DNA of 12,001 bases from contig JAFGVF010000341.1 in assembly GCA_016938155.1 (NCBI GenBank), positions 1 through 12,001 on the forward strand, given 5' to 3'. Positions 129 through 10,732 of the stretch are shown piece by piece. Position 1 is the first letter of the stretch. Each line of letters opens with the position of its first letter. The stretch comes from Candidatus Cloacimonadota bacterium. Lineage in GTDB: Bacteria > Cloacimonadota > Cloacimonadia > Cloacimonadales > JAFGVF01. A program made the position numbers and the translations under genes. The notes beneath the pieces are model-generated. The model made no database searches, had not been told where the DNA came from, and saw nothing but the letters and a program-made list of their open reading frames with translations.

Positions 129-758
129 ATGCAGTTTAAGAAGAGTTTTATTCGCTCTGCAATTCTGGAAAATGCCAGAAAGGAGTTCCTTGAAGTGGGA
201 TTTATGGATGCAACTATCCGTTCCATTGCTAAAAGAGCGAATACTGCCCCGAGTAATATCTATAATTACTACTCCAACAAAGACGAGCTGTTCAGAGGCG
301 TACTCGATGACTTTTTAAAGCAATTCTCCATGGCAAAAGCTGCCTTCATGGAACATGTTCAAAATGATCCGGAGCATGACCCTGATGATGACGAACATAA
401 TGAGATGATTGAACAGATTCTGGATGCGGTAAGCAGATACAGAGAAGAACTTACACTGCTTATTCATCTCTCCAAAGGTTCTTCACTTGAACACTTTCTG
501 GATGACCTGATTGATTGGTATTCAGGTGTTTATACCATTTCGCTTTACAAGATGCTGGAAGAGATGGAATTGGAAGAAGTGGAAATAATGCCGGAAACAA
601 CTCACATGATTGCTGGTATGATTATTTCGATGGTTGTCACTACTCTCGATAAACATTACAATCGTGCCCAGATTAAAAGTATTGCCCTTGAATTAAGTCA
701 ATTTTTCAGTGCCGGCTGGAAAGGGCTTGTATCTTGGAAGATTGAGCAGGTTAACTAA
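129..758 (+). CDS. TetR/AcrR-family transcriptional regulator
   Basis: This 209-residue protein has the normal length and layout of a TetR-family repressor. Residues about 8-54 form the N-terminal three-helix DNA-binding domain, with a typical core (ILENARKEFLEVGF, then TIRSIAKRANTAPSNIYNYY and SNKDELF). The remaining ~150 residues are helical and not recognisable beyond the family, which is normal for the ligand-binding part; an acidic stretch at 80-92 stands out. The start is supported by GGAG at 118-121, seven bases before ATG. The TonB-dependent receptor follows 85 nt downstream on the same strand. An identical palindrome precedes both genes, so autoregulation and control of the receptor are likely. 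The ligand is unknown. Confidence 0.93.
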   Translation: MQFKKSFIRSAILENARKEFLEVGFMDATIRSIAKRANTAPSNIYNYYSNKDELFRGVLDDFLKQFSMAKAAFMEHVQNDPEHDPDDDEHNEMIEQILDAVSRYREELTLLIHLSKGSSLEHFLDDLIDWYSGVYTISLYKMLEEMELEEVEIMPETTHMIAGMIISMVVTTLDKHYNRAQIKSIALELSQFFSAGWKGLVSWKIEQVN

Positions 759-843: not shown

Positions 844-3135
844 ATGAGAAAATGGATTCTTATATTATTTGTACTAATCGGCTTGTCGGTGTTGAATGCC
901 AAAGACGGTAATGGTGGATTCAGCGGTACTGTTCGGGATGCGGACACACTATTCCCCTTAAATGTAGTAAACATCACAATCATTGATTCAGATATCGGGA
1001 CATCAAGTTCAGAATCAGGAACTTACCTTATAGATAATCTGCAACCGGGGGTTTATAGCCTTCGCTTCTCCAGAACAGGCTATGCTCCGGTCATCCTTGC
1101 AAATCAGATTATCAAGCCTAATAGAATTCTGCAAGTAGATGCCAAACTGCAACGCCAGGCTTTTATCCTTAGTGGAGTACAAGCCAGGAAAGCGGAATAC
1201 TTCGCAGAAGAGACCAACAATCAAGCTTCCAAGGCAGGCTTCAGTAATGAAGAGATTCGTCGTGCACCCGGAGCTGCGGGTGATATCAGCCGCATGCTGA
1301 CTTCCCTGCCGGCAGTAGGTAGTGCCGGAGGGCAGAACAATAATCTGGTGGTACGGGGAGGTAATCCGGTAGAGAACTCATTCTATGTTGATGGGATTCA
1401 GATACCCAATATCAGTCACTATCCCGGTCAAGGGATTACGGGTGGACCGATCGGCTTGCTGAACATAGATTTTATCAAAGAACTCAGCTTCTATTCAGGT
1501 GGGTTCTCTGCAGAATACGGAGATAAACTCTCCTCTGTATCAGACATTACTTTCCGCGATGGCAACAAAGCAGGATACGACTTTCAGACTTCACTTGATT
1601 TTATTGGCTATGGTCTGGTAGGTGAAGGTCCCATTACTAAATCAAACGGAACATTTATGATTGCAGTCCGAAGAAGTTACCTCGATTTCCTTACAAAACT
1701 GGTAGATTTAGGGACTTCTTCCATTCCATCTTACGGTGACCTTCAAGGTAAGATATCGTGGAAACCCGGGAACCGACATAATCTGTCCATCCTCATTGTG
1801 AATGGGGATGACCATTCTGACTCCGAAAGAGAAATGGCAAAAAATGAGAAAATGCTTTTTTATGGGAATCAAGACATCTATGTAAATACTGTCGGGATTA
1901 ACTGGAACTGGATGCTGTGTAATTACGCCTCCACAGAAACAACTATCTCCTGGACTTCCACTAAATACAAAGAGGATTTCTATGAACCGGCAACAGGACT
2001 GAGTTTATTGGCAAATCACTCACATGAGCAGTCAGCCCATCTCAGAAACAGGACGATGTTCCGTTTGAATGAAAGTAATATCCTTTCTCTTGGAATTGCA
2101 ACTGATTTCAATTTCGATAAAATCGATAATTCCTATGGTGATTCTATTGACCCGACCGGTGAAAATGTAGCAGGTGTAGCAATAAAAAAGAACTTTGCTT
2201 CAACTGTGTCTGGAGCATTCATTAACTACGAGTTTAAGACCCTTGACCGAATGTCCGTCAACGCAGGTATTCGTAGTGATTACTATCAAGCAAATGATGA
2301 AATCACCCTTTCTCCTCGTCTCAGCTGGCGTTACAGACTCTTCAGCGAAACATATCTTAAAGGAGCTCTCGGGAGATATTATCAGGAGTTACCATCTGTA
2401 TTACTGGCTCAACAATCCGAAGACAATTCTGAGTTAATGGTTTCTGACCACTACATTATCGGTTTGGAGCATATCCTCTCCCCCTCTCTTAAAATCTCCT
2501 TGGAAGCTTATCATAAAGGATATAAACAAATGCCATTAGACCCTGACCAACCTCAGCTCTTCATCCTGGATGAACCCTTTTATGATAACGGATTGTATGG
2601 TCTTCATGAAAACCTGGTATCTGAAGGAGTTGCCACATCCGATGGTCTTGAATTGATGCTCCAGAAGAAAATGACTAACAATTTCTATGGGATGTTGAGC
2701 GGAACTTATTTCCGAAGTCGATACAAAGATTTTGAGGGGAACTGGCATAACCGTAGTTATGATAATCGCTATTTTGTTAGTATTCAAGGCGGTTACAGAC
2801 CAAACTTCAATTGGGAATTCAGCGGAAAATGGACTTACTCAGGTGGTGTTCCCTTTACACCTCTCAATGTTTCAGAATCGGAACTCTCTGGTCAGGGTGT
2901 TCTTGATATGAGCCAAGTGAACGAAGAACGCTATCCAGCCTTTCATTCTCTTGACTTACGCATTGATAAACGGTTCTTCTACAAGAATACATCCCTTGTT
3001 ATCTACACCAGCGTCTGGAATGTCTATAATCGAAAGAATATAGCCTCCTATTATTGGAATCCGTTTACCGATAAAAAGGATACAATATACAACTGGGGAA
3101 TGCTTCCGGTCATTGGAATTGAATACGAGTTTTAG
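844..3135 (+). CDS. TonB-dependent outer-membrane receptor with carboxypeptidase-regulatory-like domain
   Basis: This 763-residue protein is an outer-membrane active-transport receptor. A signal peptide (residues 1-19, ending LNAK) is followed by a carboxypeptidase-regulatory-like Ig-fold domain (about 25-105; GTYLIDNLQPGVYSLRFSRTGY). The plug domain covers about 135-240 and contains NNLVVRGGNPVENSFYVDGI and FYSGGFSAEYGDKLSSVSDI. A beta-barrel fills the rest and ends in EYEF with the aromatic terminal residue typical of barrel proteins. AGGTGA at 834-839 gives a good ribosome site five bases before ATG. The plug resembles receptors common in Bacteroidota and relatives whose substrates are mostly unknown. 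The adjacent TetR gene and shared operator suggest a regulated receptor. Nothing in the sequence names the substrate, and no periplasmic or inner-membrane partner is nearby. Confidence 0.93.
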   Translation: MRKWILILFVLIGLSVLNAKDGNGGFSGTVRDADTLFPLNVVNITIIDSDIGTSSSESGTYLIDNLQPGVYSLRFSRTGYAPVILANQIIKPNRILQVDAKLQRQAFILSGVQARKAEYFAEETNNQASKAGFSNEEIRRAPGAAGDISRMLTSLPAVGSAGGQNNNLVVRGGNPVENSFYVDGIQIPNISHYPGQGITGGPIGLLNIDFIKELSFYSGGFSAEYGDKLSSVSDITFRDGNKAGYDFQTSLDFIGYGLVGEGPITKSNGTFMIAVRRSYLDFLTKLVDLGTSSIPSYGDLQGKISWKPGNRHNLSILIVNGDDHSDSEREMAKNEKMLFYGNQDIYVNTVGINWNWMLCNYASTETTISWTSTKYKEDFYEPATGLSLLANHSHEQSAHLRNRTMFRLNESNILSLGIATDFNFDKIDNSYGDSIDPTGENVAGVAIKKNFASTVSGAFINYEFKTLDRMSVNAGIRSDYYQANDEITLSPRLSWRYRLFSETYLKGALGRYYQELPSVLLAQQSEDNSELMVSDHYIIGLEHILSPSLKISLEAYHKGYKQMPLDPDQPQLFILDEPFYDNGLYGLHENLVSEGVATSDGLELMLQKKMTNNFYGMLSGTYFRSRYKDFEGNWHNRSYDNRYFVSIQGGYRPNFNWEFSGKWTYSGGVPFTPLNVSESELSGQGVLDMSQVNEERYPAFHSLDLRIDKRFFYKNTSLVIYTSVWNVYNRKNIASYYWNPFTDKKDTIYNWGMLPVIGIEYEF

Positions 3136-3235: not shown

Positions 3236-4096
3236 ATGAATTTTATCACTTTGGAGGAAGCCAGTAAGCTGTTAAACCTCCACCCTGAAGTTGTGAGAAA
3301 GAAAGCAAGAAGCGGAGAGATACCGGCTGTGAAGCTTGGTACGGGCATTCGTGCCCCATGGAGATTCAGCGAGGAAGCACTTCAGAACTATCTTTCAGGA
3401 GATGCATCTGCTATTAAAGAAAGTGAGTTACACAATCACTATTTGCAGAAACTACTCACTCAGATGAAAGAGGAAACAGAAGAGGAAAAGAGGGTATCGG
3501 CAATTCAGGAGATTGGACTCCTGGGAAGTGAAGAAGCCATACCTGAACTAACAAGGAATCTCTTGGACGATATGGAATCCGATTCTATTAAGTTCTATTC
3601 AATCAGAGCTCTGATTGCAATTCTGGGAACTGATTCTCGCAGATATATCTACAAATATATTGAATATCCGAATCCATGGTTAGCAATCGAAGCAGCCCTC
3701 TATTTTGCCAAGAAGGAACTGGATGAGAAGGCGATTGCCTTCTTGAAAGAAAGCTATGCCAAGAGAAAAGATTTCAATTCACTTCTTGCCTTAGCTCAGA
3801 TAGATTATGAAAGTGTCAAAGATGACTATCTTGCTCTTATCGACCATGATGCTGTCCAGAACAGATACAAAGCCCTCATGATCCTTGATAACATTACAGG
3901 TGCCGATTATGTGTCTATTGTGAGAAAACTATTGGCAGACAGAGAACATCGTATCAAGCGTAAGGCAATTGAACTGACAGGAGACTTGAAACTTACTGAA
4001 CTGATGCCGGAACTCACGGAAATGCTCTCAAAAAACATTACCGATGACTTGAAGAAATGTATCGGAGCAGCTATTGTTAAGATACATACCCTATAA
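3236..4096 (+). CDS. Excisionase-type HTH protein with HEAT-like repeats
   Basis: The 286-residue product joins two parts. Residues about 3-52 are a MerR/excisionase-type helix-turn-helix (FITLEEASKLLNLHPEVVRKKARSGEIPAVKLG, with W42RFSEEALQNYL closing the wing). Residues about 80-286 are alpha-helical pairs of the HEAT or PBS-lyase type, for example RVSAIQEIGLLGSEEAIPEL and HRIKRKAIELTGD followed by LTELMPELTEML. The HTH usually binds DNA in phage excisionases and small regulators; HEAT arrays bind proteins. A DNA-binding adaptor or regulator is therefore likely, but no specific function can be assigned. There is no signal peptide or membrane segment. GGAGAG (3223-3228) is a strong ribosome site seven bases before ATG. 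The gene is 100 nt from the receptor and probably has its own promoter. It converges on the B12 operon. Confidence 0.85.
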   Translation: MNFITLEEASKLLNLHPEVVRKKARSGEIPAVKLGTGIRAPWRFSEEALQNYLSGDASAIKESELHNHYLQKLLTQMKEETEEEKRVSAIQEIGLLGSEEAIPELTRNLLDDMESDSIKFYSIRALIAILGTDSRRYIYKYIEYPNPWLAIEAALYFAKKELDEKAIAFLKESYAKRKDFNSLLALAQIDYESVKDDYLALIDHDAVQNRYKALMILDNITGADYVSIVRKLLADREHRIKRKAIELTGDLKLTELMPELTEMLSKNITDDLKKCIGAAIVKIHTL

Positions 4097-4232: not shown

Positions 4233-5462
4233 TCAACGAACTTTAAGTATCTTCCCTGTTGCGAGTTCTCTCCCACTCTTACTTATTTTATAAAAATAAA
4301 CTCCATTGGGAAGGGATTCGGTGTTAAGTGTTCCGGATGAACTGCTCACTTTCTGTGCTAGAACCTTTCTCCCCCGGATGTCATAGCAAGTAAAATCCAG
4401 CTTATCATTACTCTTTGTATCTGCATTAATTGTAATACAGGAAGAGAAAGGATTGGGATATACAGATACCTTAAATTGAGGTGCAGTTACATCCTGACTT
4501 GATGTGCTACTGTGTCTTACCTTTATATCCGTAGGTGACATACCGAGTGTATATTCCTGCTGAAACTCCTCTGCAAGATTGAATACCTTCAATACTCCGT
4601 TACTACCCCACATGGAATCTACGATAAAAATGCTGTTCGTGGTTCCGGAAACAAGTGAACCCGGAGTAGGAAAGCTTTCAGTAAAAGTATAGATAGGAGA
4701 ATAATCTGTTATATTATAGGCATAAAGTCCGGCATTATTACCATCAGCAACATATACTTTACCATTATTTGCAGACCAGATGTTCCCGAGATAACCTCCC
4801 AGAGTAATAGTATTGGTTACACTATCCGTTTCGGGATTTATCACTTTAATCGTGCCACCGTTTACTCCCCAGGCAGATGAACAGGCAACATGTAATTGTC
4901 CGTCGATAAGTTGAATATACTGAGCATTAGGGTCAATATTGATGGTTGTCAATACAGTGAATGTATCAAGATTGATAACGCTGACACTTGCATTTGCATA
5001 GTTAGGGTAAGACCCCGAGTTAGCAACATATAGCTTATTCTCTGCAATCGCCATCCCAGTGGGTGAAGCACCGACCATAACCTCAGCCACAACGGACTCA
5101 GTCTCCAAATTTATCTTGTAAACCTTGCTTGTGAGTAGTCCGCTGACATAAGCATACTGCCCCTCAATAATCAAATCATAGGGATTACACCCGGCAGCAA
5201 CGAGAATGGTTGCAAGAGTTTGACCATTATCCAAACTAACCTTTTGCAGAGTATTATCACCGGAATTTACAATATAACCAAAGTCTTCGGTAAGAGCTAT
5301 CCGATTGGTATAAAGACCTAAAGAAGCGAAGTTGTTATTCACAACCCCTGTTTCGGTGTCCAGTTTGGTAAGAGTCTCACTGGTGGAATTCACGATAAAA
5401 ACCTCTACAGCACCCAGGGTTAAAGCTGTAATCAACATGATAATCAATAATACTTTCTTCAT
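4233..5462 (-). CDS. Secreted YVTN-type beta-propeller with T9SS sorting tail; BtuG-like B12-binding candidate
   Basis: The 409-residue protein has a signal peptide (1-18, no lipobox cysteine). A beta-propeller follows at about 20-318, with recurring blades such as VEVFIVNSTSETLTKLDTET, ASPTGMAIAENKLYVANSGS and NNGKVYVADGNNAGLYAYN. A type IX secretion C-terminal domain covers about 330-409 (YPNPFSSCITI, DIRGRKV, LPNGVYFYKIS, ATGKILKVR). The gene is last in a cobalamin-riboswitch operon, 10 nt after the BtuB-like receptor, and its ribosome site TAGGAG overlaps the receptor stop codon. In Bacteroides, BtuG is a surface beta-propeller lipoprotein that captures B12 and works with BtuB. Position and fold suggest the same role here, with surface delivery by T9SS instead of a lipid anchor. 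Direct homology to BtuG is inferred, not shown; a generic surface propeller remains possible. Confidence 0.8.
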   Translation of the reverse strand: MKKVLLIIMLITALTLGAVEVFIVNSTSETLTKLDTETGVVNNNFASLGLYTNRIALTEDFGYIVNSGDNTLQKVSLDNGQTLATILVAAGCNPYDLIIEGQYAYVSGLLTSKVYKINLETESVVAEVMVGASPTGMAIAENKLYVANSGSYPNYANASVSVINLDTFTVLTTINIDPNAQYIQLIDGQLHVACSSAWGVNGGTIKVINPETDSVTNTITLGGYLGNIWSANNGKVYVADGNNAGLYAYNITDYSPIYTFTESFPTPGSLVSGTTNSIFIVDSMWGSNGVLKVFNLAEEFQQEYTLGMSPTDIKVRHSSTSSQDVTAPQFKVSVYPNPFSSCITINADTKSNDKLDFTCYDIRGRKVLAQKVSSSSGTLNTESLPNGVYFYKISKSGRELATGKILKVR

Positions 5463-5472
5463 CTAACTACTC

Positions 5473-7590
5473 CTATATATCTATTTTAATTTTATATGCT
5501 AAAGTCCAATTGATGCCCGGTTGTGGGATGTAGGCAATCACCTCATATTGTTCCGAGAGAACATTGTTAACTTGAACTGAGACTTGATGCTCCATTCTTT
5601 TTGATTTGAAACGACGATTAACCCCGACATTCAATAATCCGTATGCTTCCAAAGGTTTTATCAGGTTATCTCTGGTAGTCCACTGTCTTCCGGTATAGTT
5701 CCAGTCAATTGTAAATAAACACTTGAAAATGTTATACTCAATAATCGTTGCAAGCTGATACTCAGGGATATAGACAAGATGTTTATTAATAAAGGTTTCC
5801 GTTTTATCCAAAGCCTCGGTAAAGGTGCAATTGGACTTTACAGCGAGATTCTTAACAGGATAAATCTCCATTCCCACTTCATGATTGGTGAGTTGTGCCT
5901 TCCCCACATTATCAGGTTTCCAAACCCCTCCTGAAAGAGAGCTTCGAAGCCAGTAAATCATATCGTCTATAGAGTTCCGATTGTAGGTATATTTAACCTT
6001 AAAATGGTCAGGATATTCAATTTCACTCAGAATTTGCCAACCCTTAGATGTCTCGGCATCCAGTTCTTCGTTACCGATTGCTGAGGGAAGTCCCTTCCAG
6101 TAAAGACTCTCCATTGAGGGAACGGTAAATCCTGTACCGACGCTCATTCCGACTTTATAATTCAGCAAACCTTCGTATAGTAAACCGGAATAAATTCTAA
6201 AAGATGTATAGTCACCGAATAGCTTGTAGTTATCATATCGAACAGAACCATCATTTTCCCATAACAGACTACCCACTTTGGGTGTAACTTTTAAAGCAAA
6301 TGAGCCGGCAAAATAGCTGCTTTCTTTATTATCAACCGAGTTTGCAGTAGTAATGAAATCCTCAGAAGAATATGTATCAAGACCGTACTCTGTTCGAGCA
6401 TTGACCATCCACTGTTGTTTTTTGAATTGCCAGGCAAGAAAAGAACCACTCTTTGTAGTTTCGTTTGTATTATGGGTTTTCAATATACTTGCCTGAGTTG
6501 TTGAATTTGAATTATCATAATCAGAGAAAGAAATATGATGAAAGGCACTGAAATCAAGATAGTCAGCATAAGTCAGATTGAGGTTATGCCTGAGAATATG
6601 ACCTGTTTGAAGGGCTTTATCGTAGTGCATCTCATAATTAGTACTTCCGGGCATTTGCTTCTCAAACTCCTCATACATCAAGGCATAGGTAGTAAGCAGT
6701 GATTTGTAGGGTAACTCCGCCTTAAGATTGAGGTCATAAATCTCTTTTGCATTGTTTTGTCGTTTTACCGTCTCAGAAGGCTGATTGGAATAGGCACGGG
6801 TTTTGTATGCATAATCATTATCCGTTGTCAATCTGGATAATAGAAGCTGTAAATTTATCTTTTTTAGCCGGCTGTCCGTACCGAGAATCTCTTTGTTATA
6901 TCCGAATGAGCCGATTTCCACTTTACTCCAGAGTGAGAATCGACTTTCTGCTTTTACTCGATTTGTTTTGATGTTAATAGCACCGGCTAAAGCCCCGGAA
7001 CCTGCGGATGCATTATTCTTTACAATCTCAATAGATTCAATCAAATCTACCGGGATAGTGGAGATGTCAAACTCACTACCGGCAGGGTTCATAACCACAC
7101 CATCCACAATAATCGCTGTATGTCTGCTGCTATGACCTAAGAGTGAAACACTCTGTTTTTCTCCTGTCATATTAGCATTGCCTACTTTGATATCAGTACG
7201 GGATTTGAAGATGTCAGCCGAATTATCATAAACTTTATCGTCATTATTAATCACTATCTTTTCTGAATCGCCAAATTTGAAAGAGATATCTTCCTGTGGA
7301 CTTACAACTCTAACCCCCGGTAGTTGGTACGCTTTTTTGATAAGAATGACATCTTTCATTATCTCATTGTCAGAAACAGTTTTTTGCAAATATCCGGGAC
7401 GAATAAACTTGAGGGAATCCATGACAACTCCGACCTCAGCTTTTCCATCTTTATCAGTATAAAAGGCTTTATTATGATTGAGGATAATCACACTCTTGAG
7501 AGGATTATGCTCTTCATCTGTCACCTTAAGCATCACTGCATCGACCGACAATATCAAGACTAAGAGAGTTAGAAGTATTACTTGTTTCAT
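5473..7590 (-). CDS. btuB: TonB-dependent receptor, BtuB-like (cobalamin uptake)
   Basis: This 705-residue outer-membrane receptor has a signal peptide (1-18), a short carboxypeptidase-regulatory-like segment (about 20-90), and a plug domain (about 110-212). The plug carries QSVSLLGHSSRHTAIIVDGV, then STIPVDLIESIEIVKNNASA and SGALAGAINIKT, as in BtuB and siderophore receptors. The rest is a barrel with a final IKIDI strand that lacks the usual terminal aromatic residue. Its length is near that of Bacteroides BtuB proteins and above E. coli BtuB (about 614 residues). The start ATG overlaps the ATPase stop (TAATG), indicating translational coupling. Substrate assignment rests on the cobalamin riboswitch heading the operon and on the propeller partner downstream, because the barrel sequence alone does not name it. 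Confidence 0.85.
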   Translation of the reverse strand: MKQVILLTLLVLILSVDAVMLKVTDEEHNPLKSVIILNHNKAFYTDKDGKAEVGVVMDSLKFIRPGYLQKTVSDNEIMKDVILIKKAYQLPGVRVVSPQEDISFKFGDSEKIVINNDDKVYDNSADIFKSRTDIKVGNANMTGEKQSVSLLGHSSRHTAIIVDGVVMNPAGSEFDISTIPVDLIESIEIVKNNASAGSGALAGAINIKTNRVKAESRFSLWSKVEIGSFGYNKEILGTDSRLKKINLQLLLSRLTTDNDYAYKTRAYSNQPSETVKRQNNAKEIYDLNLKAELPYKSLLTTYALMYEEFEKQMPGSTNYEMHYDKALQTGHILRHNLNLTYADYLDFSAFHHISFSDYDNSNSTTQASILKTHNTNETTKSGSFLAWQFKKQQWMVNARTEYGLDTYSSEDFITTANSVDNKESSYFAGSFALKVTPKVGSLLWENDGSVRYDNYKLFGDYTSFRIYSGLLYEGLLNYKVGMSVGTGFTVPSMESLYWKGLPSAIGNEELDAETSKGWQILSEIEYPDHFKVKYTYNRNSIDDMIYWLRSSLSGGVWKPDNVGKAQLTNHEVGMEIYPVKNLAVKSNCTFTEALDKTETFINKHLVYIPEYQLATIIEYNIFKCLFTIDWNYTGRQWTTRDNLIKPLEAYGLLNVGVNRRFKSKRMEHQVSVQVNNVLSEQYEVIAYIPQPGINWTLAYKIKIDI

Positions 7591-8363
7591 TATATCCCGG
7601 GATAGATAAGATTTGGGCGGTTACTGAGCGGGTTGGTATTTATCAGGAAATCCATATCATAGGCTTCCTTAATTCTTGCTTCTGTGATGATATCGACCGG
7701 AGTTCCATCAGCTACAATCGACCCTGATTTCATCAGGATTATCCTGTCGCAAAAATTGGCTGTTAGGTTAATATTGTGCGAGACAAGAATAATTAGCTTT
7801 CCGGTTTCCTTGTGAATAATATGGAGTAACTGCATCATCTCAATCTGGTGATTTATATCCAGGTGACTAAAAGTCTCGTCAAGCAGAAGGATATCTGTAT
7901 CCTGAGCTATTGCCCGAGCTAAAAAGACTCTCTGTCTTTCACCTCCGCTCAGTTCATTGATATATCTATCCCGAAGCTCATTGAGCTGAAACTTAGTCAT
8001 AACTTCTGTTACGACATTAATATCATCTTTGGAATAGCGTTGAAGGAAGTTTAAGTAGGGATAACGCCCCATCAACACAAGCTCTTCCACTGTAAATTCA
8101 AACTGATGAAAGGTGTCCTGAGGGATAAAAGCCATGCGACTTGCCAACTCTCGGCGTGACCATCGATTCACATTTTTACCATCAACAGAAACAGAACCCG
8201 AAGATGGCGGGAGAAAACCTATAATGGTCTTTAAGAGGGTTGATTTCCCTGCTCCGTTTGGTCCAAGCAAGGCAATAAACTCACCTTTTGAAGCAGAAAA
8301 CGAAATATCATGGAGAATTTCTCCCGTCTGATAACCCGCACTTATACCGTTAATTTTAAGCAT
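7590..8363 (-). CDS. btuD: ABC transporter ATP-binding protein, BtuD/FecE type
   Basis: The 257-residue cytoplasmic ATPase powers an inner-membrane importer. It has Walker A (GPNGAGKST, 34-42), a Q-loop (Q82), the signature LSGGERQR (138-145), Walker B (ILLLDE, 158-163) and an H-loop (H196). Walker B is followed by TFSHLD where PTSHLD is usual, a mild variation. The family serves cobalamin, haem and Fe-siderophore importers; the riboswitch upstream points to cobalamin. The frame stays open to 8498, but ATG at 8361-8363 is preferred: AAGGAAG lies four bases before it, the protein then begins at the first conserved strand (MLKINGISAGY), and the extra 45 residues would be translated from the riboswitch expression platform. 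No permease or binding protein adjoins it, so it must pair with products of other loci. Confidence 0.9.
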   Translation of the reverse strand: MLKINGISAGYQTGEILHDISFSASKGEFIALLGPNGAGKSTLLKTIIGFLPPSSGSVSVDGKNVNRWSRRELASRMAFIPQDTFHQFEFTVEELVLMGRYPYLNFLQRYSKDDINVVTEVMTKFQLNELRDRYINELSGGERQRVFLARAIAQDTDILLLDETFSHLDINHQIEMMQLLHIIHKETGKLIILVSHNINLTANFCDRIILMKSGSIVADGTPVDIITEARIKEAYDMDFLINTNPLSNRPNLIYPGI

Positions 8364-8367
8364 AATA

Positions 8368-8443: not shown

Positions 8444-8499
8444 AAAAGTAGGGTAATAACCTGTATTTCCGCGACTTCTTGCTCCGAAAAGTCATCAAG

Positions 8500-8675
8500 A
8501 ATCATTTGTTTGGCAGGTTTCCTGGCTCACAGCGGAATTTCTTCGTCTGCCTTCCCGGGTTTTTCCCAGTGACAGATGCTCCTTGCAGATTGAACTGCAG
8601 CTGCTTACAGTGGCGGAGACCGCTCCGGCATTTAACCGGATTCCCTTTTAAATATCACCACACGAAGCTATGATT
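8500..8675 (-). ncRNA. Cobalamin (adenosylcobalamin-type) riboswitch aptamer
   Basis: The minus strand carries the conserved elements of a cobalamin riboswitch in order: AAAAGGGAA, a TCCGG/CCGGA hairpin, AGCGGTCTCCGCCACTGTAA, a CTGCAG-rich stem region, CACTGGGAA, CCCGGGAAGGCAGACGAAG, and the B12 box AGCCAGGAAACCTGCC at 8512-8527. AATCAT (8670-8675) can close the aptamer with ATGATT (8500-8505). It lies 136 nt upstream of the ATPase ATG and heads the operon. With B12 bound, the known class represses uptake genes, so ATPase, receptor and propeller should rise under B12 limitation. Confidence 0.96.
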
Positions 8676-8702
8676 GGGGATTGAGGTTTTATGTCAATGG
8701 TA

Positions 8703-8878: not shown

Positions 8879-10732
8879 TTACCCCTTAACTCTCCCCTCC
8901 AACGCTGCAACTCTATCCTTCAACTCCTTTATCCTGAATTCTCTTCCTACGAAGAGCTTATTAAATCTTTCCAATTCTGTGTTCTTTGTCTCAAGCTCTT
9001 TCGTTCTTTCCTTGACCAGTTCCTCGAGTCTTTCTCCATGTTTTTCTAACTGTATTTCTGCCAACTTAATGTCTGTTAAGTCAACAGTTTGGATAATGGC
9101 ATTAGTAACAAATCCTTCTTTATTGATGACTGGCGTAATAATTGATCTGATATATTTATGAGTAGCATTCTGAACAGTCACATGGTCAACAGCCTTGAAG
9201 TCATAGTCCATTTCAAAATCTGCGATTACACCATTGTTAAAAACATCTTCAACAAGTGGCATTAATCCCTTTTCTTTTATTATATTGTCATTGAAAATAG
9301 TGTATTTCCCTATTACTTCCTCTTCGGATGCCCCGAATAGTTTCAAGCATGCCTGATTTGTAGAGACAGCATAACCCTTCTCATCTGAAATCCACATACT
9401 TACGGCAGCATTTTCAATAATGGTATTTAAGAAGTTTGTCTTTTCACTAAGCATTATCTCATTCTCTTTCACTGCTGTGATATCGCTCATTACATGCACT
9501 GCACCGGTCAATTTGCTCTCGCTATCAAGAATTGGAGTTACCGATACAAGATACCATTTATCACCGAATTTGAATTCCATGGTCTCTTTTTTCAGGCTTT
9601 TCTGCATTCTAAGATTGGGACAATTCTCAAATGGTCCATTCAAACCATGAACTATTTCAAAGCACTTTTTCCCTAATAATCGGTCAGAAGTATATCCAAA
9701 TAACTCTGTTGTTGCTTTGTTGACCTGAATGATATTGCTGTCCGGATCAAGAAGAACTACTGAATCACTCATGGCATCGAAAGTAGTCTGCCATCTGCGA
9801 CTGTATTCAATCAACTCATTTTCCGTTTCCAATTGCTTCGTATATTGCTTCTCAAGAAGCAAAACTTTACTTCTGATTTGTGCTTTTAAATATCTGTCCA
9901 ACATGAAGATGAATAAAACTAAAGCCAGAACAAGAATCAGGAGGGAATAAATCCACTTAGGGATTCTTCGTTCAGGAGTTATACTCCCCATATACTTATC
10001 AAGAGATTTATAATATATCGACTTCAGGTCCTTTCTCAAGGTAATGACATGATAGTCTATCCTCTTCTTAAGTAAAGGTGTCATTACTCCTGATTGGGGG
10101 AATGCAAACATGAGGGTGGAAGGACTGAAAACTATGGGAGTGCTTTTAACGCGATATCTCCTTTCATTCATCAAACCATAGTCTTTGTTGGTAATACCCG
10201 CAAAAATCTGTTTCTTCTTCAAAGCCATAAAAACTTCATCATAACTATTGTATTCCACTAATTCACTTTTTATGGCATAAGACTTTAAAATATCCTCAAA
10301 TCCGTTTTTATCTTCAAAGTTTGAGCTTCTTATCAATCCCCCTACTCGCTTTCCTTCCAAATCAAGCAGTGATTTAAGCTTCGTGTCTTTATTTATATAG
10401 ACTCCGGACCAGCTAAGCAAAACCGGTTCCTCAGAAAAAGTAAGTCGTTTTTCCCTTTCTGAAGTTAGAGCAACATCTGGTAGAATGTCAATTTCTGAAT
10501 TCTCCAACCATTCAATGCAATGATTCCAGGAACCATGTACATACTGAAGAGTCCAGTTTTCCTGTGTTGCTATATATTCGATTAGATCGATCCAAAATCC
10601 GGAAGGAACACCATTTTCATCAGTGTATATTTTAGGAGAATTTTCATACACTCCTACACGAACGAGTTGTTCTGAAAACAGCAGCGATAATGCAAATAAT
10701 AGAATGGATGCCAAAAGTATCTTTCGTTTCAT
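8879..10732 (-). CDS. Membrane sensor with solute-binding and two PAS domains, no output domain
   Basis: The 617-residue protein starts with a signal peptide (1-20), then a periplasmic family-3 solute-binding domain (about 23-250; VRVGVYENSPKIYTDENGVP, GFWIDLIEYIA, EIDILPDVALTSEREKRLTFS). One membrane helix follows (about 258-278), then a linker helix, PAS 1 (about 311-420), PAS 2 (about 432-560) and a C-terminal coiled coil (about 558-617, including FNKLFVGREFRIKELKDRV). PAS 1 contains C357, H362 and C371 in a CFEIVHG...CP pattern that I recall from a subset of PAS domains. Such proteins normally continue into a histidine kinase or cyclase, but here the frame ends and the next 180 nt code for nothing. 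It may signal through a separate kinase via the coiled coil. GAGG nine bases before ATG is a fair ribosome site. Confidence 0.88.
   Translation of the reverse strand: MKRKILLASILLFALSLLFSEQLVRVGVYENSPKIYTDENGVPSGFWIDLIEYIATQENWTLQYVHGSWNHCIEWLENSEIDILPDVALTSEREKRLTFSEEPVLLSWSGVYINKDTKLKSLLDLEGKRVGGLIRSSNFEDKNGFEDILKSYAIKSELVEYNSYDEVFMALKKKQIFAGITNKDYGLMNERRYRVKSTPIVFSPSTLMFAFPQSGVMTPLLKKRIDYHVITLRKDLKSIYYKSLDKYMGSITPERRIPKWIYSLLILVLALVLFIFMLDRYLKAQIRSKVLLLEKQYTKQLETENELIEYSRRWQTTFDAMSDSVVLLDPDSNIIQVNKATTELFGYTSDRLLGKKCFEIVHGLNGPFENCPNLRMQKSLKKETMEFKFGDKWYLVSVTPILDSESKLTGAVHVMSDITAVKENEIMLSEKTNFLNTIIENAAVSMWISDEKGYAVSTNQACLKLFGASEEEVIGKYTIFNDNIIKEKGLMPLVEDVFNNGVIADFEMDYDFKAVDHVTVQNATHKYIRSIITPVINKEGFVTNAIIQTVDLTDIKLAEIQLEKHGERLEELVKERTKELETKNTELERFNKLFVGREFRIKELKDRVAALEGRVKG

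Follow-up and report, generated by a model that had tools for sequence, protein, structure and literature searches.

A BtuG-like beta-propeller with a type IX secretion tail as a probable corrinoid-capture partner of BtuB in Cloacimonadota

The window analysed here is a stretch of 12,001 nt from a Candidatus Cloacimonadota bacterium (phylum Cloacimonadota). It is one entire contig of a 2.38 Mb assembly that is 72% complete. On its minus strand, a cobalamin riboswitch is followed by btuD, btuB and a gene for a beta-propeller protein with a sorting tail of the type IX secretion system (T9SS). The aptamer, RF00174, was located at 8495–8677 (cmscan 90.4 bits, E 8.4e-22, model positions 1–189 of 189) and was the only RF00174 match in this 72%-complete assembly. 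A BtuD-like ABC ATPase was encoded between riboswitch and receptor at 7590–8363, with an ABC_tran match of 125.9 bits in a domain scan made on 7590–8366. Its start was placed at the ATG at 8363, which is preceded by AAGGAAG. The TTG start of the same open reading frame, which reaches 8498, is unlikely because it overlaps the riboswitch. FecE, heme and corrinoid ATPase models gave 244–259 bits, and none of the 25 listed models reached its cut-off. The BtuB-like TonB-dependent receptor (705 aa) occupied 5473–7590 and the propeller gene (409 aa) 4233–5462, starting 10 nt past the end of the receptor gene. A hairpin between riboswitch and btuD had a folding z of −0.93, and nothing is claimed from it. 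A preliminary description of this DNA had placed the propeller gene directly after a BtuB-like receptor under a cobalamin riboswitch; this arrangement was recovered, with the ATPase as an addition.

The propeller protein consisted of three parts. Residues 1–17 (5412–5462) form a putative signal sequence with neither cysteine nor lipobox, read from the translation and with a presumed cleavage site. Cysteine was absent from residues 1–40. The N-terminus was hydrophobic, with a predicted helix at residues 2–15 in the structure model, and the signal peptide was judged by inspection. Residues 18–318 (4509–5411) were assigned to a seven-bladed beta-propeller with a net charge of −16, based on the structure model and its PDB matches. 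The model had a mean pLDDT (predicted local distance difference test) of 90.9 with values mostly above 90 in this part, and the 28 strands at 19–317 were grouped by us as seven blades. The YVTN repeat TIGR02276 (32.4 bits, cut-off 27.85) and DUF5074 (30.1 bits, cut-off 27.2) were detected. A low-confidence linker (320–328) led to a second beta domain extending to the C-terminus. There, Por_Secre_tail PF18962 (49.7 bits, cut-off 27) and TIGR04183 (46.1 bits, cut-off 23) jointly covered residues 334–407 (4242–4463), identifying a T9SS type A sorting domain. The missing lipobox, the YVTN-type propeller and the Por/T9SS domain had all been proposed in the preliminary description, and all three held. 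Among 36 family members, the lipobox pattern matched once, within the hydrophobic core of P0014 (residues 10–13), and 35 carried a PNP motif close to the C-terminal end. Net charges ranged from −33 to −7 in 35 family members trimmed to the approximate propeller and from −23 to +5 in 67 BtuG proteins.

The receptor matched the TonB-B12 model TIGR01779 with E 1.4e-26 and 93.2 bits, far below the cut-off of 599.7. Its structure model had a pLDDT of 83. Foldseek placed BtuB3, BtuB2 and BtuB1 chains of Bacteroides thetaiotaomicron on ranks 1–6, followed by BtuB of Escherichia coli; VIA-align left the B. thetaiotaomicron and E. coli BtuBs tied. The closest named receptor was from 'Candidatus Zophobacter franzmannii' (57% identity). 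A BtuC-like permease gene was located elsewhere in the same genome. Vitamin B12 appears to have a use in this cell, since three B12-binding domains scored above cut-off.

The link between propeller and B12 genes extended through the phylum. Propeller matches of at least 146 bits were present in 103 of 124 Cloacimonadota genomes, and the lower matches listed (at most 104 bits) were of the tail type. RF00174 was found in 101 of the 124 genomes, in 99 above cut-off. It lay 68–154 nt upstream of 38 of the 103 propellers, 2.2–3.1 kb upstream of six and 7.1–8.8 kb upstream of 25, two of the last resting on sub-cut-off matches; the other 34 had no riboswitch linked on the same contig and strand. A receptor was encoded directly upstream (<700 nt, same strand) of 59 propellers. 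Altogether, 94 of the 103 propellers were linked to a receptor or riboswitch, as had been expected for relatives of the window protein, and four of the remaining nine begin less than 220 nt from a contig end. Counted from raw, partly incomplete assemblies, ten genomes held a receptor without a propeller match, two showed the reverse and 11 had neither. Of the 13 family-level groups, 11 showed coupling to btuB or a cobalamin riboswitch. Family f2 is the largest; 32 of its 44 propellers were not directly beside a receptor and had their own riboswitch. In 11 genomes of the phylum, the receptor and propeller genes each carried a riboswitch, in seven of them on different contigs. Such a dispersed regulon is a stronger argument for a shared task than adjacency.

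Six loci of the 7–9 kb class (L032–L037) showed the order btuF, btuC, an opposite-strand cluster, btuD, btuB and propeller; domains were checked in L033 and partly in L032 and L036, the rest by eye. With this order, the distant riboswitch does not necessarily control the propeller. The cluster occurred in five family-level groups (f6, f9, f10, f11 and f13). In L033 (5226–7643) it encoded an Rrf2 regulator, a cysteine desulfurase-like protein and a NifU-type scaffold; it was recognised by eye in the other five loci. Four genomes of one genus (G001, G003, G005 and G008) held propeller and receptor but no RF00174, and in three of them none was near the propeller. A lenient search at the unlinked loci L044–L047 revealed no RF00174. 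In this genus, B12 control must differ or the aptamer must be too diverged. L044 (5465–7465) contained a series of CRISPR-DR7-like repeats, each below the gathering score, close to the unlinked G001 propeller.

Kinship with BtuG was assessed by structure and by profile searches. The predicted fold was BtuG-like, as the preliminary description had anticipated, with an archaeal YVTN propeller first and BtuG second among its PDB neighbours, and the structure alignment with BtuG showed 14–20% identity. The fold match was not taken as proof of BtuG identity: other seven-bladed propellers reached nearly equal scores. With a BtuG profile at E 1e-6, one match each was obtained in 102 of the 124 Cloacimonadota genomes. 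Of these, 101 lay within the propeller identified with the family profile; the last was a contig-edge piece on the same contig as the receptor fragment of that genome. For the reverse direction, a propeller-only profile, A5, was built from 22 Cloacimonadota rows. In 11 Bacteroidota genomes picked for holding BtuG loci, the known locus was the best A5 match in ten, by coordinates; in the eleventh, G125, it was a second locus, L186, also with riboswitches. Of 345 evenly drawn Bacteroidota genomes, 55 gave A5 matches that reached 1e-20, and the other 290 did not. At 53 of the 55 loci, RF00174 was located on the same strand, 319–3401 nt upstream of the propeller. The two loci without it, L172 and L199, have little sequence upstream of the propeller, as they begin at or near a contig end there. 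Thus, at 1e-20 in Bacteroidota, a profile built exclusively on Cloacimonadota proteins picked out almost only propellers of B12 loci. At the level of profile matches, BtuG stood out in whole-genome searches in either direction.

These results support the BtuG-like interpretation of the preliminary description. The propeller protein is probably (at roughly 75%) BtuG-like, capturing corrinoids in partnership with the adjacent BtuB-type receptor, exported by the T9SS and held at its C-terminus. The interpretation is based on gene order, the riboswitch, the predicted fold, the tail, the two-way best matches, the phylum-wide linkage and the T9SS genes; from these we infer the direction of gene regulation, the secretion of the protein, the chemistry of its anchor, its binding of B12, the lid complex and the hinge. 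Low B12 lifts the repression exerted by riboswitches of the cobalamin class. A low cellular B12 level would permit expression of btuD, btuB and the propeller gene. The propeller would be exported by the Sec pathway and cross the outer membrane by the T9SS via its C-terminal domain, which would be replaced by a surface glycolipid or retained as a tether. The negatively charged propeller could then capture corrinoids outside the cell and pass them to BtuB, probably covering the receptor as a lid in the way known from Bacteroides. BtuD and the BtuC-like permease encoded elsewhere would complete import.

The known system closest to this proposal is BtuG (BtuG1/2/3 of B. thetaiotaomicron; PDB 3dsm, 8bmx, 8blw and 8p97), which shares the seven-bladed propeller, the BtuB neighbour and the cobalamin riboswitch. 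Negative charge is also common to both, with −18 given for BtuG2 in PMC10404256. Unlike BtuG, the window protein has no lipobox, ends in a T9SS sorting domain, belongs to another phylum and is distant in sequence. The pair resembles the BtuBG pedal-bin transporter in the adjacency of its genes and in the B. thetaiotaomicron BtuBs nearest to its receptor model by Foldseek. It differs in the anchor, which would sit at the opposite chain end, and its complex is putative. That it forms the same surface complex as Bacteroides BtuBG, as had been proposed, we infer by analogy.

HBP35 of Porphyromonas gingivalis is a nutrient-binding T9SS type A cargo that reaches the surface by a C-terminal sorting domain, as proposed for the window protein; it binds heme rather than B12 and is not known to be a propeller or to be encoded in a receptor operon. 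BtuH and BtuJ (DUF4465) are likewise not known as propellers. They share with the proposal for the window protein an accessory capture of B12 at the surface from riboswitch-regulated loci (PMC13398666), and differ from it in being mostly lipoproteins.

Two observations on sequence could speak against kinship with BtuG. On the family, a generic propeller profile scored 83.5 bits and the BtuG profile 82.3 bits; profile comparison separates the two weakly, and a generic propeller is not excluded by fold and profile scores alone. Further, the aromatic residues that contact the upper ligand in BtuG2 were not visibly kept. Of the pocket residues Trp194, Tyr239, Trp272, Tyr316 and Tyr335, with a numbering deduced from PDB fragments and partly presumed for Trp272, three were not kept by eye, the equivalent of Tyr239 depended on the alignment and Tyr335 faced a Trp. 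BtuG1-type proteins vary at these positions too. Both observations would suit a generic T9SS surface YVTN propeller drawn into B12 uptake of Cloacimonadota by separate descent. We regard such independent recruitment as unlikely given the two-way best matches across whole genomes. Columns common to the family and BtuG numbered 13 at 90% and 40 at 70%, versus 2 and 27 for generic propellers, and the loop after 'YVANSG' is as long as that of BtuG, whereas the loop of the generic profile is about seven residues shorter. A generic YVTN protein or lactonase as the main identity was set aside based on B12 linkage and the two-way matches. The phylogenetic tree was not used as proof of kinship, as generic rows served as its outgroup and their exclusion was built in.

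Even if BtuG-like, the protein could act as a scavenger, free or loosely tethered, with corrinoids bound at the surface or in the surrounding medium, similar to BtuH and BtuJ and not as a stoichiometric lid on BtuB. The f2 propellers with their own riboswitches fit this possibility, as equal dosage with the receptor is not enforced there, and T9SS cargo is reported to be releasable or anchorable (PMC10202324). The direct succession of receptor and propeller genes in 59 of 103 cases argues against it, as does the Foldseek ranking of lid-bearing B. thetaiotaomicron BtuBs first for the receptor model, although the lid-less E. coli BtuB ties in VIA-align. We consider the scavenger a minority possibility, ahead of independent recruitment. 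An altogether different task at low B12, as an adhesin, a surface-layer part or for capture of a B12-carrying protein or another ligand, would make the association one of co-regulation only. The closest single PDB match of the propeller model, an archaeal surface-layer propeller, points in this direction. The coupling in 11 of 13 family-level groups, together with the B12 loci of a second phylum, renders it improbable.

The machinery for the proposed anchor was present. The genome of the window encoded SprA (G000:C292, 378 bits, cut-off 200) with neighbours, and PorU-type pieces of 387, 339 and 225 bits, each below the cut-off of 420. SprA was detected in 115 of the 124 Cloacimonadota genomes, in 110 above cut-off. 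The PorU sortase model matched all 124; because the model includes a C-terminal sorting tail of its own and gave weak matches in two unrelated control genomes, the 71 genomes above cut-off are the safe count. Cloacimonadota are listed among phyla that may possess a T9SS in PMC11285876. The preliminary description had taken the tailed form as this lineage's way of building the complex. Within the phylum the tailed form was widespread, since in 98 of 103 propellers the profile match extended into the tail, to position 400 at least; it is not confined there, as 12 of 59 propellers in the 55-genome Bacteroidota set ended in a T9SS tail motif. Two of the 12 were near-copies of two others by branch length, and all of the ten scanned exceeded the TIGR04183 cut-off.

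The survey of lipoproteins covered the 80 best of at least 585 named Bacteroidota loci that the BtuG profile had retrieved. No locus of the 80 had a Por-type tail motif and 74 matched the lipobox pattern; of the other six, five showed a cysteine by eye and the sixth starts at a contig edge. Of 16 of these loci that were scanned, 12 had RF00174 and one AdoCbl-II. A lipoprotein BtuG and a tailed propeller occurred in tandem behind one cobalamin riboswitch at L148:1163–3360, L162:4693–7287 and L165:1031–3228, and probably at a cut fourth locus. The tandem tailed copies may differ in role, because their charge is neutral to positive.

A quick tree of 103 rows required at least four changes between tail and lipid. 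A careful tree was built from 77 rows after removal of 26 of the 103: the four tandem tailed rows, one of four further tailed rows, three of the eight generic rows, and rows that were near-copies or had long branches. Cloacimonadota formed one clade (100/99). The eight remaining tailed Bacteroidota fell in three places, were together in 0% of 200 bootstrap trees and were forced into two places by well-supported branches alone. Again, at least four changes were counted over all, with no readable direction. A single origin of the tail was disfavoured by the approximately unbiased test, with p 0.0265 for the eight as one clade, a modest value, and 2e-5 with the 18 Cloacimonadota rows added; the groups had been chosen after inspection of the first tree. 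More than one anchor exchange is therefore favoured on this sequence evidence. The anchor looks exchangeable, because the 12 tailed Bacteroidota propellers stand in two or three places among lipoproteins.

A wider proposal, for which we see evenly balanced chances, is that a propeller lid on BtuB captures B12 at the surface in Cloacimonadota and Bacteroidota alike and is no peculiarity of Bacteroides lipoproteins, with the anchor as an exchangeable module. The anchor would be an N-terminal lipid in most Bacteroidota, whereas Cloacimonadota and two or three separate lines of Bacteroidota would use a C-terminal T9SS tether, with some Bacteroidota operons holding both forms side by side. The tailed lid would be hinged from its C-terminus. 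A C-terminal tether could replace the N-terminal lipid without much shift of the hinge, because both ends of a closed propeller adjoin. In B. thetaiotaomicron, the N-terminal lipid linker follows a receptor loop and could serve as hinge, and lipoprotein-capped receptors seem exclusive to Bacteroidetes, according to PMC10404256. PMC6143338 reports no BtuG homologues outside Bacteroidetes among 313 human gut strains. No T9SS-tailed BtuG was described in the consulted portions of PMC6143338, PMC10404256, PMC11285876, PMC13398666, PMC12578637 and PMC8542988. The literature searched on BtuG with T9SS or Cloacimonadota gave none either; supplements and subscription papers were outside its scope, and absence from print is unproven. 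The T9SS-tailed propellers of Bacteroidota appear to be new.

If correct, the capture-lid strategy extends to a second phylum and needs no lipoprotein, and the T9SS serves vitamin uptake. Comparison of the two anchor types could reveal which part of the lid motion depends on the tether. A likely role would also be given to a protein of 103 of 124 Cloacimonadota genomes that so far bears names such as 'T9SS type A sorting domain-containing protein' or 'YVTN family beta-propeller protein'.

Tail-less relatives were P0040, P0042 and P0043, with 38–39% identity over about 65% of the query. P0040 carried an Armatimonadota name, and P0040 and P0042 showed an N-terminal dockerin-like stretch by eye. 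Other genes of the window were a minus-strand gene at 8879–10732 whose product pairs an SBP_bac_3 domain with two PAS stretches and has no kinase or output domain in its Pfam matches, and a plus-strand second TonB-dependent receptor with a carboxypeptidase-regulatory domain (844–3135), preceded by a TetR-family gene (129–758, plus strand). At 3236–4096 on the plus strand, HEAT repeats were fused to a helix-turn-helix domain of the excisionase type.
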